This document shows, piece by piece, positions 52,880 through 61,810 of a DNA stretch of 64,000 nt. The stretch's first letter is position 1, and every line of letters begins with the position of its first letter. Source of the DNA: Naegleria lovaniensis (lineage: Eukaryota; Heterolobosea; Eutetramitea; Acrasida; Naegleriidae); contig NW_025407831.1 of NCBI RefSeq assembly GCF_003324165.1, positions 434,001 through 498,000 of the forward strand, read 5' to 3'. Both the position numbers and the translations under genes were made by a program. Under the pieces are notes generated by a model. It saw only the letters and a list, made by a program, of their open reading frames with translations, did not search any database and was not told where the DNA came from.

Positions 52880-54004
52880 CAAGTATGATTCGAAACGACG
52901 ATCTTAAGAATCGTGATAGGAATTTTCCAAATGGAATTGTTGAAACTTTTTCGAATGTTGACACATACGACTTTGTTCAAAAAATAATTCCCGCATAATT
53001 GTACAATTATCAATAAGACGATCCAAATTTCCCATACGTAAATATTCCACAACCATACACTTGGTAGAGTCCGAATTGCTAATTCCATAAAATTGACAAT
53101 ATTTGGATGACGAAGAGTGCTCAACAATGCTGATTCTTTTTGAAATACTGTTCACTGAAACTGATCTCGCCTCTGATCTTGAAATGCGCACTTCTCAATG
53201 CGTAGACTTTGTCCTCCAACGACTCTAACAATCTTTTCCTTTTTTGATAACGAAATGTTTTCAAACTTGGATGATCAATGAGAAAACTCCTCCTGACATT
53301 ACAAACGAATTTTCAATAAAGGTGCATCCATGAGTTTCCACAAAATTTGAAGAGGCAATTTTGGAAAAGCTTGACAAAAACTACGAGTTGTTAAGTGTGA
53401 CCTGTGAATTTGATATGGTAAAATTTGAATGAATAATAGTGCTATTCGTGATGGAAAAGTGAGCACTGATGGGTTGATATTCTATATCAGAAATCCAACT
53501 CGAGTCAAACATGAAATTTTCTAATATTGAATCTGAAACTGTCCAATCTTGTATCTCTAAACTCGAAGAATGTTTAAATTGACTATTGATGATTTTTGAA
53601 CGAATGATTGTCTTTTGAGAACGAAAACTCCATTGATTGTTTTGAATCACACTATCCACGACTGTGACTCTTGTATCTCTAATGTCAATGGCCACATTTC
53701 TTAATAGACATTCATAACAAATAAAGTGTGCATTCAACAACATGTCAACATTCAACTCCAAATTTCGAACTATAAATTCTGAAGGATATTTCTTTTCATT
53801 TTCACTCAGATCCATCCAATAAGATGCCTTACTATTGGAAAAATCCACAATTTCATCATTGCCTTCCACAAAAATAGTGTCACTCGAATAAGTTCCTTTA
53901 GCAACATGAATATAAAGTGTGCTGACGTTCATTTCCGGGTAGAGACTAGAAATAATATTTGAAAAATGTTGACATGGATTTTGATGCATTGCTCCGAGCG
54001 TCAA
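52880..54004 (-). pseudogene. Decayed receptor-like protein kinase (beta-helix ectodomain + kinase fragment)
   Basis: Reading on the minus strand, 54004-53381 encodes a pectin-lyase-like right-handed beta-helix ectodomain (NPCQHFSNIISSLYP, then repeated ITNSTI, VDSVIQN, IRSKIINSQF turns). About 200 bp later comes a kinase N-lobe in two frames: FQKESALLSTLRHPNIV (53140-53090) in one and FYGISNSDSTKCMVVEYLRMGNLDRLIDN in the next, separated by a one-base loss. No TM segment, HRD or DFG motif survives. This matches the receptor tyrosine-kinase-like families with parallel beta-helix ectodomains known in amoeboid protists. Start codon and signal peptide are not identifiable. Clearly non-functional as it stands. 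Confidence 0.65.
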
Positions 54005-54500
54005 AAAAAAGAAGAGAAAATTTGTAGAGTTGATCGAGTCAATGATGAGTGAACGGATGGGAGGAGGGATTGGCCGTTCACCAGGAAAAAAGTCGTGTGA
54101 TGGTTGATTGAAATAGGGTTGCGAAGGATCAAGTCAATGATGCACCCAAGCATCAAGAAACTGACAACTGTCACGGATTGTAGCGTTTTTAAACATTTGT
54201 ACTTGTTACCAACAGCAAGAAATGTTAATGAGAAATGACCATGAGAAGAACTTGTTGCAGAGCTGAAAGAAGTAAATTCTTGTAAAATTACAAAAAAAAA
54301 TGTCAAAAGAAATAACAATTGATTTGGATCTAAACACTACAGAAAATACATTGATTGATTTAAATGATGACGATGATCATCATCGGAAATTGAATTCTCA
54401 TCGTGAAAAACAAACAAACAAAAAATACAGAAAAGAGAATTAAAATATGATAAATTCTTTCCGATCGAGTTTTTGAATGATGAAACGTTTGTTTTAAATC

Positions 54501-54762: not shown

Positions 54763-57700
54763 TTATTTTCTGAGAATGTTAGCAATGAATGGATGGAAAA
54801 AGTCATCAAAGCAGTCTCCGGAAACCAAAATTAGTTTAGGACATGGTGTTTGTTTTGATTCGGCTGAAATTACTCCATTGTTGACATTGTTGGCTGTGTT
54901 GTCAGAGACTTTTTTTCTTGAGAAAATTATTACATAAACATCATAACCTTCAATATCCAATAGTGCATTCTTATAATGATTGCATAATTGTTTGGGTTCA
55001 AGTGTCCTTATTTGTGATTCATCTTTCAAAAACTTATTTTGGACTACAAATAGCACTTTCTTTTCGTTTTCTAAACTAAAGGCTGGTAAAAATCCATCAA
55101 TTCCTTGCTGATTAGGTTTTGCCTTTGTGATTAAATTATCATCCGTGTTTTTCTTTACGAGTGATGTAGAAATTGATTGTGAAACTTCGGCATAATGGAA
55201 GTAGGCCTTTGAATCAATGTTGGTCATCAAAGTCTGTTGAGAAAGCTTGTGTGGCATATGTGCCCCTTGAAAAAGCTCACCAATAGTAAAAGTAGACTTA
55301 GGTTTAGTATGTTGTAGCTTAAGAATATAGTTCAGTTTGCAGGTAATTGTTTTCAAACATAGCTCTTCGAATTTTTCCCAATCAGGTTTTGCTGAAGTAT
55401 AAATAAAATCGTTGAATAACCTTTTTGGGATTTCTGTATAGAATTCTGAAAGCTTGTCAATAGCAGGAAGTGGTAATCCAATATGGTTATTGGATTTGTA
55501 AATTCTACCTTCGCTAGCTAGTACTTCAATATTCTTTTCATATTTGAGAGATTTGTGAGTGCTATATGAAAACCCTGAAAGAGTAAGTAAGGAGAGATAT
55601 CGATAGATATCATCTGGTGCGTCGTTTGGTTGATATATCAAATACATTTCTTTCACAACATTGCAGTAAATATAGCTTATTTTTGTTTCTAATGGAATGG
55701 TCGTGTTGTTTGTAATCTCTTTGGCATATTTAACTGCCCATTCTAAATGTCTAGGCACAACACCAATGATACTCCAAAAAATCTGATATTTTGAAACATA
55801 AAATTCTGTCAAATTTTGCATTATCAAAATTTTTTCAATATCCTCCTTTCGCAGTGTTGGTAATGGGAGCGTTGTTATTTTGTAGTCGGTTGGTTCAAAT
55901 TTGGCATCAGAGTCCAATAATGTTCCTGAGAACGTTGGAAATAATACTAATCCTTGTCGTTTCTGACAGTTTCTCATATACCATCCAATTTTATGTTGCA
56001 ATTGGGTATTTAGATCTTTGTTGATTCTGGTGACACGTTGATACTCGTCAAATGCCAGAATAAGAGGTATAGGTACTGATTGCTCGACCTTCAATTGCTC
56101 GTGTAATTTTGAGCTAATAATACGTAGAAGTTCATACAGAAAATAATCGTTATCTATTTTTGGTAACCGTCTTGAAATTCCTTGATCTTCAAAAGCAGAG
56201 TAAATAATTCTCGCTGATATTAATGATATAATAGCGGTATCTCTTGCAACATCATTTTGCAAAACAAATCCATTTGTAAAGTTGAAATAAATGACTGATG
56301 AATTCTTAAAAATATGTTGTGGTTCGGCCTTCGAAAGAATTTTGACAGCCTCAGACACAATACGAGTCTTTCCACTCCCACTTCCGCCTTTGACAATCAA
56401 AAAAGTCAAGTCTTGTTTGTTAATTTTTTCTAGTTGACTAGCTTTGTATTGTGTTGTACCTAAATCTATAATTGATTGTATTGCTTGTTCTCTATTCATC
56501 ATATCGAAAATCAGACGATCCAAGTTATAATGAACATGTGATAAATCTCTCAATGTTAGCTCATTGATCTTTTGCAACAACAACAATTCTTCATCAGAAA
56601 AATCTGAAGTATCATTTGTGTATTTGTCTGGAATGTAGTTTGAGGCTACAAATTTCATTATGTACTTTATGTGATTCATTAATGCAAAATACTTACATTT
56701 CGTATGCTCAAACTTTAACAATGGAACTTGTATGCTGTTTTGTAGAAACTGTGTGACCCATTTGCCAACTGTTGTACCTAAATTCAAGTCAAGATTTCCA
56801 ACGGCCACAGATTCACCTGTGGATCCATAGACTACATCTTTTGCAATAGAGTAAAGAGTTTTGCCATCTAATGAAGAAACTTGATCAAGACTCAAATCAG
56901 CACCTCCTTTTGCAATTGGTTCGCCCAATTTTTGTTTGATTTGTTTACTCACCGGCTCCAATTGCCATAGTGAATATTGTCTGGTCATTAATTGATCGAG
57001 CACCCAAAATACAACAGTTTTGCAAGTACTTTCGGAGATATGAGTAAAGTCTTTGCTTCCAGTCATGGCTTTGATGGCAAAATATTCATCCTTCTTCATG
57101 ATATCCTCAACAATGTTGTGGAGAGATGAGCCATCAAAACCAGCCTCATACAAAGGCTTCACCTTTTCAACCGACAAACCAGCACCACCCAAAGATTCAT
57201 CAGATGTCAATACTGATGCTACCTGTTGCGCGTTCCATTTCTTGTAATCCATCAAATTGAGAGTGATTGGTTCGGAGAATGAAGATGCTGACGTAACATC
57301 ATTGTCATTTGTTGATGCTTCTTTCTCCTTCAACCAATTTGTGGTGGTGTAAGAACGTATTTGGCCAAATGCTGTTGTTGTTGGATAATACAACAATTTG
57401 GTGTTCGGAACAATTAATTGATCGAGCACCCAAAATACAACAGTTTTGCAAGTACTTTCGGAGATATGAGTAAAGTCTTTGCTTCCAGTCATGGCTTTGA
57501 TGGCAAAATATTCATCCTTCTTCATGATATCCTCAACAATGTTGTGGAGAGATGAGCCATCAAAACCAGCCTCATACAAAGGCTTCACCTTTTCAACCGA
57601 CAAACCAGCACCACCCAAAGATTTAGGAGAAGTTAGCAGTTGTACTACTTGTTGCGCGTTCCAACTCTCGTAATCAGTAAAATTGAGAGTGATTGGTTTC

Positions 57701-58023
57701 TGTGATTTTTGGTGAGGTTCTTCAACAATAGTGGTTGTTCCGGATAATGAAGAGGTTATAGCACCCATTGATACATCAGAATCATTAATACTAGAGCTTG
57801 AAACATTGGTTGTATTGGTGGATAGAGTTTGCTTTTGCTTCTTCGTGTTAGGCTCAATTGTGTTGATTGGGGTTTCTTCATCATCGTCATGCTGTACGGA
57901 AGTGTGGTTTGTAGTATCCATCTTTCTCTTTCCTTGGGATGATGAATCATCACAAGCATGTTCTATTTCGGGGCAATTGCTGGTTTGAGATTGAGAAATG
58001 TTGGTGTGTGCTTTTGGTGCCAT
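54763..58023 (-). CDS. Crinkler-like protein: tandem SAM-like headers, P-loop NTPase, REase-fold nuclease
   Basis: 1086 residues, single exon. The leader (1-107) is acidic and Ser/Thr-rich with two basic nuclear-localisation-like patches (GKRKMD, TKKQKQ). Residues 108-203 and 250-345 are two near-identical SAM-like helical modules (WNAQQV, GGAGLSVEKVKPLYEAGFDGSSL); 365-440 is a degenerate third. A P-loop NTPase follows with Walker A GGSGSGKT (546-553) and Walker B LILAFDEYQ (Asp659-Glu660). Near the C terminus GIDGF (Asp976) and VVQNKF (Gln995, Lys997) fit the D...QxK active site of a PD-(D/E)xK nuclease. SAM-type header, NTPase and nuclease is the layout of Crinkler/CR effectors used in inter-organism or self-element conflict. 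The family call is by architecture, not by search. Confidence 0.6.
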   Translation of the reverse strand: MAPKAHTNISQSQTSNCPEIEHACDDSSSQGKRKMDTTNHTSVQHDDDEETPINTIEPNTKKQKQTLSTNTTNVSSSSINDSDVSMGAITSSLSGTTTIVEEPHQKSQKPITLNFTDYESWNAQQVVQLLTSPKSLGGAGLSVEKVKPLYEAGFDGSSLHNIVEDIMKKDEYFAIKAMTGSKDFTHISESTCKTVVFWVLDQLIVPNTKLLYYPTTTAFGQIRSYTTTNWLKEKEASTNDNDVTSASSFSEPITLNLMDYKKWNAQQVASVLTSDESLGGAGLSVEKVKPLYEAGFDGSSLHNIVEDIMKKDEYFAIKAMTGSKDFTHISESTCKTVVFWVLDQLMTRQYSLWQLEPVSKQIKQKLGEPIAKGGADLSLDQVSSLDGKTLYSIAKDVVYGSTGESVAVGNLDLNLGTTVGKWVTQFLQNSIQVPLLKFEHTKCKYFALMNHIKYIMKFVASNYIPDKYTNDTSDFSDEELLLLQKINELTLRDLSHVHYNLDRLIFDMMNREQAIQSIIDLGTTQYKASQLEKINKQDLTFLIVKGGSGSGKTRIVSEAVKILSKAEPQHIFKNSSVIYFNFTNGFVLQNDVARDTAIISLISARIIYSAFEDQGISRRLPKIDNDYFLYELLRIISSKLHEQLKVEQSVPIPLILAFDEYQRVTRINKDLNTQLQHKIGWYMRNCQKRQGLVLFPTFSGTLLDSDAKFEPTDYKITTLPLPTLRKEDIEKILIMQNLTEFYVSKYQIFWSIIGVVPRHLEWAVKYAKEITNNTTIPLETKISYIYCNVVKEMYLIYQPNDAPDDIYRYLSLLTLSGFSYSTHKSLKYEKNIEVLASEGRIYKSNNHIGLPLPAIDKLSEFYTEIPKRLFNDFIYTSAKPDWEKFEELCLKTITCKLNYILKLQHTKPKSTFTIGELFQGAHMPHKLSQQTLMTNIDSKAYFHYAEVSQSISTSLVKKNTDDNLITKAKPNQQGIDGFLPAFSLENEKKVLFVVQNKFLKDESQIRTLEPKQLCNHYKNALLDIEGYDVYVIIFSRKKVSDNTANNVNNGVISAESKQTPCPKLILVSGDCFDDFFHPFIANILRK
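56987..57197 (-). repeat. 211-bp exact repeat, copy A (within Crinkler-like gene)
   Basis: Identical base for base to 57413-57623, offset 426 bp (142 codons, so frame is kept). It encodes 70 residues of the second SAM-like header. The flanking parts of the module differ, so identity is limited to this block, as in recent gene conversion or segment duplication. Confidence 0.9.
57413..57623 (-). repeat. 211-bp exact repeat, copy B (within Crinkler-like gene)
   Basis: Partner of 56987-57197 in the first SAM-like header of the same gene. No mismatch seen over 211 bp, which is unusual between domains whose flanks have diverged. Confidence 0.9.
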
Positions 58024-58150: not shown

Positions 58151-59318
58151 GTCATTGGTTGCGTCTCCTCTGAAAAGGAACAACAGTGTTGATGTCAGGA
58201 ATAGAAGACTACTGTATCCAGAGTGAGGTTGGTATTGAATGAAGCACAAATCTTGAACACTATCATGCTAACTGCGCACTATGCAGGAATTTTGAGAAAT
58301 CGATTTATCTTCGACTTGTTTGTGTGGATATGAGCCAGATCGAAGGTATCGTTTGTGACGCAACGTCGACGAGTGAATCGAGGCAAAAATAGGGTTTCAA
58401 CTTCCCTTACTCCGCAAATAATTAATCGCACTAAACACCACCCCACTGCATTTGAAATTTTTTCGATCACTCTTGGAAACTCATATATCAACACGAAATT
58501 TGCAATAATGCTTTCCAATGCGTATTCACAAATGTTTCATTGGGAGCAGTAGAAATTATTCCACAGCATGGAATGTCTTCTCTTGATATTTGTTGTTTAT
58601 TGTTGTGGGCTATTTAAATTGTTAAATTTCTTGGTTTAGAAATTTTGGCTTGTCTTCCAAGTTGTGGGTAGCTTCAATGCTTCCTATTAATTAATAAACA
58701 GTTGCATTCTTCAGAACACACAAATAGAAAAATCACTACCTAGCCAATGTTATAACCATCCCAAAAGAATGTGGGGAACCCTGTTCAAAGATGAACAAAA
58801 TGACCATTCTGAAGGAAGATGGGTCTATGGGAAGGAAAATGAATGAATCCGTTTTGTTAAATAGTATGGAAAGAGAGAACATGAGAGCAAAAAACCCAAC
58901 CGTTGTCAGTGATTTTTTCAGCGGTGGCTGAAGCAACATTTGAGAGCTGTTGTCGACCAAACCAGGTTCCTTTGAAACTCCACAATCTCATAGAAATGAA
59001 AAACATTTGGGATGGACCAATTCCAGCCAGCCAAAATTTGGGATGATTCAAAGCCAATCAACTAAGAAGGATCGCTAAACAAGTACCAGTTTGCGGATAC
59101 TGCATTTAACACGTTCAGCAAAGAAAATATTTTGTAATGATTACAACTTCAACAGTTTCTCAAGAGCAAATGGAACAGTTAAAGAAACACAAGCACTTTC
59201 AAAGGACTGTATTAATTAGTGATCACCTTTCAAGTGAGAACTATTTCACTGTAAATTTGTTACCTTATTACAAATCATTCCTGTTTTACAAAAACCAACA
59301 CCCACACGAGGGGTGGAA

Positions 59319-59348
59319 GAAATCGCCCATCCTAGCACACAGCTAATA
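59319..59348 (+). repeat. Inverted repeat, left arm (30 bp)
   Basis: Reverse complement of 61362-61391 with no mismatch. Outward similarity continues at lower identity (both sides share an AAATCATT-CTGTT segment), so this is the conserved core of a longer inverted duplication. Together the arms bracket the 339-residue ORF. Confidence 0.85.
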
Positions 59349-59481
59349 ATTTGATTGCATCTGGATAGTAATTTCCAGAGCGTTTTGGAAATGAGGATTT
59401 CTTGGGCGGGCTGGACTCGCTGAAGCGGCTGATTGCTAATAAAAAAATTTTTATTTTAAAAAAATCTAATTAGTTTATTGT

Positions 59482-59498
59482 TAGCACCATTGGTGCTG
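59482..59498. promoter_or_regulatory. Small palindrome downstream of orphan ORF
   Basis: Seven-base arms AGCACCA/TGGTGCT around a single T (59483-59497), 22 bp beyond the ORF stop, next to A/T runs. Could be a 3' stem-loop or a binding site. Confidence 0.4.
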
Positions 59499-59519
59499 GT
59501 AAAACTATTAAACGCACGT

Positions 59520-60539
59520 TCATGCGGTTGACTTTGGCTTGAACTGTCTTGAAATTGGTTTCAATTCTGTGGAGCAAATAAATCTTGTTGAGGTTAGTCT
59601 ATTCAATTCATTGATGTCATTAAGCTTGTATTCAACAATTAGGTATGAGTAGGTATCTTTTACCTTTTTCTTAATACTGAGTCTCTCTTTTTCGAATTTG
59701 ATGGTTGTGTTCTTGCATAGTGTTTTAATTGCTTTGGTAATTGCGAGTTCACTTGTTGATTCGGGAAGTATGCAATTTGCTATGTGCGTTTCTTGCTTTC
59801 TTTTGATAATTTCAAATCCTTGTTCAATCAATTCAGTGTTGGGATTCTTGGAATCAAAGTTAATTTTAAGTTTGTACAAGGTTTCTCGAGGATTGAATGT
59901 TAGGCACATTTGTTCAATTCTACATTTCTTTTGATTGATTGAGTACTTGATGAGAGTTTGGATGTTCGAAATTGATTTTTCTTTGGCTATTAATGTTGTT
60001 GGAGCTGATGTAAAAATCATTGGTGAAGCGAAATATTTTGTTTGTGTTTTTTCTGTCATGGCTGGTGAATTAAGTTTCTTTAGTATTTGTTGTTGAGTTT
60101 CGGCATTTTGAATGACTAAATTGAGAGTGTTGGTCTTACTGTCTGGGATGTACCAGTGTTCAATGACTGATTCAAATCTTTTTAGAATAAATTTAACAAA
60201 TGAGGATGAGATATTGCTGTCCGAGTAGATTGAGATTGAATTAGTTTTGTTCTTGGGTTGACCAGTATGTTCAATTTTGAGTTGAGGAGTTTCTAAATGT
60301 TTAGTTTCCTGTTTTGGTTGTTGGGTTGGTTCAGGTTGAGGGTGAATTTTTTGCGCTTCATTTTGAGCTTGAGAAATTTTGATGGTTGGTTCAGGTTTTG
60401 GTTGAGTTGGTTTTGTAACTTCAATTAATTGCTGTACTGTTTGTGTGAGCGTCTTAACAGCGTCTTGCAGTTCTTTGATTTGTTGTTGTTGTTGTTCTAG
60501 GTGGTTTATGAGTTCTTTGATGGTTTGTTGTTGAGTCAT
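59520..60539 (-). CDS. Orphan coiled-coil ORF, ORF1-like, in candidate mobile element
   Basis: 339 residues, single exon after an A/T run. Residues 1-42 form a Gln/Leu coiled coil (ELINHLEQQQQQIKELQDAVKTL), 43-90 a Pro/Gln/Lys-rich linker, and 100-339 a Lys/Asn/Thr-rich domain with strand-helix alternation (FVKFILKRFESVIEHWYIP; MCLTFNPRETLYKLKINFDS; YSYLIVEYKL). The layout (coiled coil, linker, basic nucleic-acid-like domain) recalls ORF1/gag proteins of retroelements, but no zinc knuckle is present and no transposase or reverse transcriptase lies nearby. Bracketed by a perfect 30-bp inverted repeat. Function unknown. Confidence 0.45.
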   Translation of the reverse strand: MTQQQTIKELINHLEQQQQQIKELQDAVKTLTQTVQQLIEVTKPTQPKPEPTIKISQAQNEAQKIHPQPEPTQQPKQETKHLETPQLKIEHTGQPKNKTNSISIYSDSNISSSFVKFILKRFESVIEHWYIPDSKTNTLNLVIQNAETQQQILKKLNSPAMTEKTQTKYFASPMIFTSAPTTLIAKEKSISNIQTLIKYSINQKKCRIEQMCLTFNPRETLYKLKINFDSKNPNTELIEQGFEIIKRKQETHIANCILPESTSELAITKAIKTLCKNTTIKFEKERLSIKKKVKDTYSYLIVEYKLNDINELNRLTSTRFICSTELKPISRQFKPKSTA

Positions 60540-61810
60540 TTTTTTCGCGTCGTTTTATTTTAAAAAAATGAAAAGCATACACCAACAACAACATGGCCAC
60601 TAACACTCGTGGCGATAGTAAACATGCTGCACGGCATTTCATTACCTCACACAAGCCGAAGAACTGTTCATATCAATTTGATTAATTTTCGAAATGTGAT
60701 TAATTTTTGGATTTGAAACTCAGGTGAAGGTCGATGATGTCAAAGATTGGACCAAGTTTTGGACTGCTGTGAAGAGTTGAGAGTTGGTTTGGACGACGAT
60801 TGGGAGAAAATATTTTCGGTGATGGCCCGTCTAATTCCAAAATCAACGTACACCTCGAATAATACACGTGAGTGGATAAATAAGAACATCAAGAAAAAGT
60901 TGTTTATTCGTGGCTCCATAGTTGTACACTGTGATCTACAATTTGAAAATTGCAGGATTCGATGCATTGTTGAATTCAGATTGTGAAACTCCTTAGAATT
61001 GGAAAAAATTGGAGAATGAAGAAGATTTCAAAGCTTGCACTAGAAGACAACAACGAAACGTAGATGATCATTAATATTCCATCTGGGCAAAAGATACTGA
61101 ATGCGAAGAATATGCGTTCATGCAACTAAAGCCACCAACAATGATCATTCAGAACTATATTATGTTGAACGCAACAACATTGTGGTCGATATTGCCACAA
61201 GTCACTTGTTGTGAATAAAGTTTGGCCAGATCTTGCATGTATTTCAAGCAACAATAAATCAATCAATTACTGGAATAAAAAAATTTCGGGATTGTTTGGT
61301 GGCTGTTGTTGCTGGAGTTGCTGCGATTGAGCAGTATTTTTGCAATCATCCCCATCCGGGCTATTAGCTGTGTGCTAGGATGGGCGATTTCGCCCTCACC
61401 CACACCCACAATACTATAACGAACAGAAAATGATTTACAAACGTCTGTAGTTACAAGCTTTCGTCTGAAGAATACCACTTAGAACTTGTGCAGCCAAACC
61501 CTCTCGAGCAACAAATTGAATGGGTTTGCTTGACGAAAAGTCCTCAGATGAACATCGTTGCAACTGTCACCGTTGGGCCCCGATAAGCAAGGCCCTCTCC
61601 ATCAATGCCATAGTTACTTTGTAATATCACGTGTGATCATCAAATGCCATTGATGGAGCATCAAAATAATCAAACGTTCGTTGGTGAAATGCTGTTTCCA
61701 ATAAGAAGAAAATACATCATGATGCGAGATCTCGTGTGCATTTTCTGATTTGAACTTTTCCCTTATTGCAGTCTGTCTCAGCACGAATGAACAAATTGCA
61801 TCATTAAAAA
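60540..61810. other. Gene-poor region right of orphan ORF
   Basis: 1.27 kb with no convincing gene. A 79-codon plus frame at 60747-60986 (ends CDLQFENCRIRCIVEFRL) has no family or splice support. The right inverted-repeat arm lies inside. The end must hold the RNA-ligase promoter. Confidence 0.5.
61362..61391 (-). repeat. Inverted repeat, right arm (30 bp)
   Basis: Perfect reverse complement of 59319-59348, 2.07 kb from its partner (outer-to-outer). Lies in a diverged coding-like stretch (minus frame KLVTTDVCKSFS). Confidence 0.85.

Follow-up and report, generated by a model that had tools for sequence, protein, structure and literature searches.

The window analyzed here, 64,000 nt of the Naegleria lovaniensis genome (assembly GCF_003324165.1, contig NW_025407831.1, positions 434,001–498,000), carries a long open reading frame (ORF) on its minus strand at 54763–58023, annotated as C9374_000249, and raises the question of what an amoeba does with a protein that seems to join repeated helical modules to a nucleoside triphosphatase (NTPase) and a nuclease. 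The preliminary description of this locus had proposed a Crinkler-like conflict effector with a novel header of the sterile alpha motif (SAM) type, acting between organisms or against selfish elements. Our reading, to which we give a probability of roughly 0.55, is that the gene belongs to a heterolobosean family of modular conflict proteins, SAM-headed NTPase-nucleases retained by the cell that makes them. The leader would serve as the address, one to three SAM-fold units as the clustering device, the AAA+/STAND-like NTPase as the switch, and the C-terminal nuclease-like domain as the effector. The protein would stay inside the amoeba, routed by its leader to the nucleus (window gene) or to the mitochondrion (paralogues); recognition of foreign or selfish nucleic acid would make the NTPase change state, the SAM units would drive assembly, and the clustered nuclease would cut DNA or RNA. 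Nuclease activity, sensing, localization, clustering, and target are all features that we infer for the family.

The deposited protein (P0001, 1069 a.a.) equals the ORF after removal of a GT...AG intron of 51 nt, and the two are 100% identical over residues 470–1086, the part searched. The parts of the gene, all on the minus strand and with residues numbered along the ORF, are as follows:

54763..58023, minus strand: whole ORF, 1086 codons from ATG, including the annotated 51-nt intron
57679..58023, minus strand: leader, residues 1–115, acidic with KRK and KKQK clusters, nuclear-localization-like (inspection and composition)
57412..57678, minus strand: SAM-like unit 1, residues 116–204 (unit profile)
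57253..57417, minus strand: buried remnant of a putative mitochondrial-type leader, residues 203–257, containing FGQIRSYTTTNW (motif match to paralogue leaders)
56986..57252, minus strand: SAM-like unit 2, residues 258–346 (unit profile and predicted SAM fold)
56743..56982, minus strand: degenerate SAM-like unit 3, residues 348–427 (unit profile, 55.2 bits)
56646..56696, minus strand: in-frame intron of the deposited gene model, 51 nt (comparison with P0001)
55897..56538, minus strand: P-loop NTPase core, residues ~496–709, with Walker A at 546–553 and FDE at 658–660 (alignment and model residues 27–240)
55417..55896, minus strand: mostly helical region with a VPRHLEW motif, residues ~710–869, possibly winged-helix-like (model, low confidence)
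54766..55431, minus strand: probable PD-(D/E)xK-type nuclease, residues 865–1086, with a helix bearing E883/E886, D976, and Q995-x-K997 (alignment and model)

Architecture of the protein

The layout is thus a variable header joined to a C-terminal NTPase and a probable nuclease, the last recognized by motif and element order, as first proposed. A hidden Markov model (HMM) trained on the family's own sequences recovers three copies of the header unit, at residues 116–204 (130.6 bits), 258–346 (131.8 bits), and, more weakly, 348–427 (55.2 bits), which bears out the two intact and one degenerate modules of the preliminary description. Of the 267 nt compared between units 1 and 2, 249 are identical, among them an unbroken run of 211 nt (57413–57623 versus 56987–57197), which points to their origin through recent duplication or gene conversion. 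The header model matches the SAM fold with a second-look structural aligner, and we predict that the units adopt this helical fold, in agreement with the SAM-type header suggested earlier; Foldseek returned no match below E 2 for the same model. In comparison with the known SAM oligomers (Polyhomeotic/PHC, Scm, and the tandem SAM of SARM1), the Naegleria unit is ~20 residues longer, is attached to a different C-terminal part, and has no match to the Pfam SAM profile (six header units, E up to 10).

By BLAST, the C-terminal parts of proteins P0001–P0037 fall into seven classes, the window protein belonging to class c1. Across a 10-sequence alignment of this class, Walker A (GGSGSGKT, beginning at residue 546) and FDE (658–660) are invariant or almost so. 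In the structure model of residues 470–1086, which is of modest quality (predicted local distance difference test, 58.7), model residues 27–240 align with AAA+/STAND-like NTPases (the BREX protein BrxC 8.8, origin recognition complex (ORC) subunits 8.6, and the immune NTPases Avs3 7.7 and NRC4 7.6). With Walker A, an acidic Walker B, and a comparable predicted fold, this core has the features expected of an AAA+/STAND P-loop NTPase. Some ORC5 alignments extend to model residue ~400, hinting, at low confidence, that a winged-helix-like part separates the NTPase from the nuclease.

Pfam was run on the whole protein, 20 family sequences (19 open frames of the genome and P0008), nine deposited relatives plus the window nuclease part, and the six header units; this gave weak P-loop matches and scattered chance-like ones, none at the curated cut-off, the lowest E values being AAA_22 in L048 (8.3e-5), DAP3 in L043 of class c3 (1.1e-4), and T2SSE in the window protein (2.8e-4). 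PADLOC gave no match, and a single-sequence search of the PDB gave one row, imidazolonepropionase (E 0.44), whereas PDB searches with two profiles gave no row. A housekeeping AAA+ protein is disfavored, because the protein searches yielded no named relative beyond Naegleria and Willaertia.

For the C-terminal part, D976, Q995, and K997 all lie where the preliminary description had placed them, as do the NTPase motifs. Within class c1, E883, D976, G977, and K997 are invariant and Q995 is conserved in at least 90% of sequences, and around D976 and Q995-x-K997 the model places its elements in the sequence expected for a PD-(D/E)xK core. Class c4, reached only via the common header and not joined to c1 under the BLAST criterion, aligns with c1 over almost its full length in a profile comparison (97.9%, E 3.5e-13, 589 columns), and its D and Q-x-K fall at the corresponding positions. 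When the unrelated-looking L033 is added (seven sequences), only Q995 and K997 remain invariant, L033 being gapped at D976. Against this assignment, neither Pfam nor PDB profiles gave a match to the C terminus. No clear Q-x-K was seen by eye in classes c3, c5, and c6. The best 50 structural matches to the 470–1086 model, which mainly covered model residues 27–400, included no nuclease. The residues named in the earlier assignment are conserved and the predicted element order suits it, and we regard the domain as a probable PD-(D/E)xK-type nuclease on these predictions.

Class c4 (P0026, P0027, P0035) ends in a further stretch after the nuclease-like part, with a weak DUF655 match in P0027 (E 0.1); we take this stretch to resemble a helix-hairpin-helix DNA-binding motif.

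Family, leaders, and origin of the window gene

Grouping of 49 tblastn rows gave 33 header-matching loci in this genome, the paralogue count that had been called for, and one short nuclease fragment on contig C40. Of 30 proteins retrieved when the header served as query, 18 belong to N. lovaniensis, 10 to N. fowleri, and two to Willaertia magna; searches with the NTPase-nuclease half, in which the distant-relative profile search scored the 7994 candidates sharing most words, likewise had only Naegleria and Willaertia among their named relatives. No row of the three protein searches was named N. gruberi, whose genome itself was not searched. Scans of viral contigs with five class alignments, and a single scan of contigs from prokaryote genomes, turned up no sequence relative; both absences are weak, because each scan rests on two short peptide patterns.

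Four of the 37 proteins (P0006, P0007, P0009, and P0037) lack a header unit by HMM. Profile comparison joins c4 to c1, and a weaker link (89.8%) brings in the opening parts of c5 and c6. Class c2 consists of two halves linked at 99.7%, and every other class pair stays below 13%; one header type therefore serves several quite different NTPase C termini. Taken together, the family is expanded and recombining, with its header/leader and C-terminal modules shuffled, and the proposal of a lineage-specific family agrees with these results. Class c1 also has another, divergent lineage, represented by L034 and L046: L034 is open on contig C46 (42–50% identity), and in L046 on contig C34 many stops break up the C-terminal part.

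Inspection and composition distinguish two main leader types, an acidic one with K/R clusters, to which the window leader belongs, and one nearly or wholly devoid of acidic residues, in which motifs like QIRSYTT or VRSFHT occur. The motif FGQIRSYTTTNW of the buried remnant recurs in the leaders of many paralogues. Among four control loci of mitochondrial type in the genome, a similar motif was read in two (QRFYSAE in the citrate synthase L056 and KRCYSAS in the ATP synthase beta L053); the second citrate synthase, L055, has none in the 120 residues examined, and L054, a relative of ATP synthase beta that scored below the cut-off, lacks one as well.

Under a simple rule, both leader types occur within classes c1 (two nuclear-like and two mitochondrial-like of 10), c2 (two and five of nine), and c4 (two and one of four), the remaining proteins being headerless, short, or undecided. 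Rule and eye disagree on P0017 (c3) and on P0019 and P0030 (c5), so the leaders of c3, c5, c6, and c7 were not relied on. Leaders are also shared across classes: the window leader (c1) is 65% identical to that of P0027 (c4) over 113 a.a., the leader of P0003 (c1) matches that of P0034 (c2) at 81% over 111, and that of P0008 (c1) matches those of P0031 (c2) and P0036 (c4) at 70% and 53%, respectively. By composition and motif, then, the same effector classes carry nuclear-type and mitochondrial-type leaders. We consider this exchange of leaders between compartments the most interesting new point, with localization itself suggested by leader sequence.

The window gene is, judging from its similarities, a chimera. 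In 10 of 48 rows, the DNA match to other loci breaks off at 57415–57420 (residue 203); from residue 203 onward the gene is 93% identical to the contig C62 gene (P0002), and upstream of it lies a nuclear-type leader of the P0027 kind. The C62-like part begins partway through a leader of mitochondrial type, which now lies enclosed by SAM units on either side. The ratio of nonsynonymous to synonymous substitution rates (Ka/Ks) against C62 is 0.386 for residues 461–1086, with 0.29 for residues 470–869, 0.69 for the nuclease part, 0.69 for unit 2, 0.49 for unit 3, and 0.99 for residues 203–257, showing overall constraint relative to this one paralogue.

Known conflict proteins and alternative explanations

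According to the accessible text of a review (PMC5289972), Crinkler/RHS (CR) proteins consist of a header and a C terminus, with NTPase, helix-turn-helix, and restriction endonuclease (REase) as the commonest layout in Phytophthora; they have various helical headers, occur in free-living eukaryotes, and include trypanosome RHS proteins among their relatives. The Naegleria family resembles them in its modular header on an NTPase and probable REase-type nuclease, its expansion, and its headers on different C termini, but differs in having a header predicted to be SAM-fold rather than ubiquitin-like and leaders of nuclear or mitochondrial type. The LXLFLAK ubiquitin-like header of canonical oomycete CRN proteins was not found in the window protein, whose header models as SAM. 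Pfam Crinkler gave no match in the window protein at E up to 1 and at best 17.4 bits in the genome (contig C50), against a cut-off of 24.6, and Pfam RHSP gave none over its cut-off in the genome; these negatives are weak, because neither model matched in any of 14 control genomes. Since the layout and behavior agree with the review's account of CR proteins but the Pfam models stay below their cut-offs, we suggest a CR-like mode of action and regard membership of the class as likely, though unproven. The preliminary description had the anatomy right, and its Crinkler/CR assignment was a good guess. What the family resembles is the amoeba's own version of the Crinkler/RHS conflict proteins.

If this is correct, the CR class gains a SAM-type, probably clustering header, and a large CR-like repertoire exists in a free-living amoeba related to the RHS-bearing trypanosomes. 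One set of effector classes would be seen with both nuclear-type and mitochondrial-type leaders, and the role of CR proteins in organisms that infect nothing would become testable in a harmless laboratory species. A more specific version, which we offer as a tentative idea and would not bet on, is cell-autonomous immunity, in which leader swaps re-address SAM-scaffolded NTPase-nucleases so that one repertoire guards the nuclear and mitochondrial genomes against incoming nucleic acid, for example giant-virus or mobile DNA. In the viral structural library BFVD, the best match to the 470–1086 model is an uncharacterized Pithovirus LCPAC104 protein (A0A481Z7L9, 624 a.a.; E 2.9e-8, 643 columns, 16% identity), with a giant-virus Mrr-type REase far lower in the ranking (E 0.15). 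TM-scores for the Pithovirus match, obtained with a query of modest model quality, are low (0.24), perhaps from differing domain placement; possibly, exchange between giant viruses and amoebae lies behind it.

Among the papers listed on Naegleria with Crinkler, RHS, or P-loop/restriction-endonuclease families, and on the sterile alpha motif with Crinkler, we found no earlier description, judging by titles and the start of abstracts; the term "SAM domain" is absent from the accessible text of the N. lovaniensis genome paper (PMC6125883), and "SAM domain", "NTPase", and "nuclease" from that of the Naegleria pangenome paper. The 2016 survey defining the CR class may already list Naegleria members.

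Secretion or injection against other organisms, as with oomycete Crinklers, would be in keeping with the CR-like architecture (accessible text of PMC5289972) and the repeat-rich flank. We think it improbable: judged by eye, the leaders are of nuclear or mitochondrial appearance, with no secretory-looking one among them, the family is present in Willaertia too, and CR proteins are known from free-living eukaryotes (same source). Because the leaders seem aimed at the amoeba's own compartments, cell-autonomous function is the better reading, and the inter-organism action put forward earlier loses ground, while the nuclear-localization-like leader it cited is indeed seen on inspection.

A comparably low probability attaches to nuclear factors of chromatin or gene expression with a nuclease that is no longer catalytic, as proposed for trypanosome RHS. 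In Trypanosoma cruzi, RHS proteins reside in the nucleus, form recombining mosaics, and have been suggested to act on chromatin (accessible text of PMC7563717). The likeness lies in a P-loop motif, a large mosaic family formed via recombination and conversion, and nuclear location. The same source places the P-loop of T. brucei RHS in the conserved N-terminal part, with a variable C terminus; in the Naegleria family it is the SAM header that members have in common, and even the NTPase varies from class to class. The nuclear-type leader of the window gene and the classes without a clear Q-x-K would suit such factors, but class c1 shows no variation at D976 and K997, and the mitochondrial-type leaders on many paralogues are left unexplained by chromatin work.

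More doubtful still is a domesticated or still mobile selfish element, whether self-spreading genes or transposon cargo near contig ends. Half of the loci considered (14 of 28, the other five of 33 being left out for unknown contig extent) are no more than 30 kb from a contig end, where at most 19% would be expected (binomial 2e-4), the copy on C34 has many stops, and transposon-like repeats adjoin the window gene. Contig ends may, however, be subtelomeres or merely mark where repeats broke the assembly, and the C62 similarity ends near the stop codon and inside the gene at residue 203 rather than at outer boundaries. The window gene itself is 260 kb from a contig end. A DNA-maintenance (replication, repair) family of organelle or nucleus amplified in this lineage is very improbable: ORC/Cdc6-like NTPase and nuclease-like parts and mitochondrial-type leaders would fit it, but modules are shuffled and named relatives are confined to Naegleria and Willaertia, with the N. 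gruberi result as given above.

Flanking repeats

The preliminary description had placed the gene in a gene-poor, repeat-rich neighborhood. Transposon-like repeats do occupy its upstream flank, but the genome overall is 77% coding according to the accessible text of PMC6125883, and we reject "gene-poor" as a description of it. An element with 30-bp inverted ends (59308–61391) lies upstream of the gene, with a 1.1-kb ORF-bearing element (59458–60570) inserted in it. The nested element encodes a 339-a.a. ORF (59520–60539, minus strand), with near-identical copies on contigs C68 (99%) and C15 (97%) and a partial copy on C16; other copies of the outer element, on C26 and C40, show the insertion site without the insert. 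On both sides of the insertion stands ATTTTAAAAAAAT, which looks like a target-site duplication. Downstream of the gene, the stretch 53300–54415 recurs on C22 (84%) and, for the most part, on C37 (83%), as part of another repeated family.
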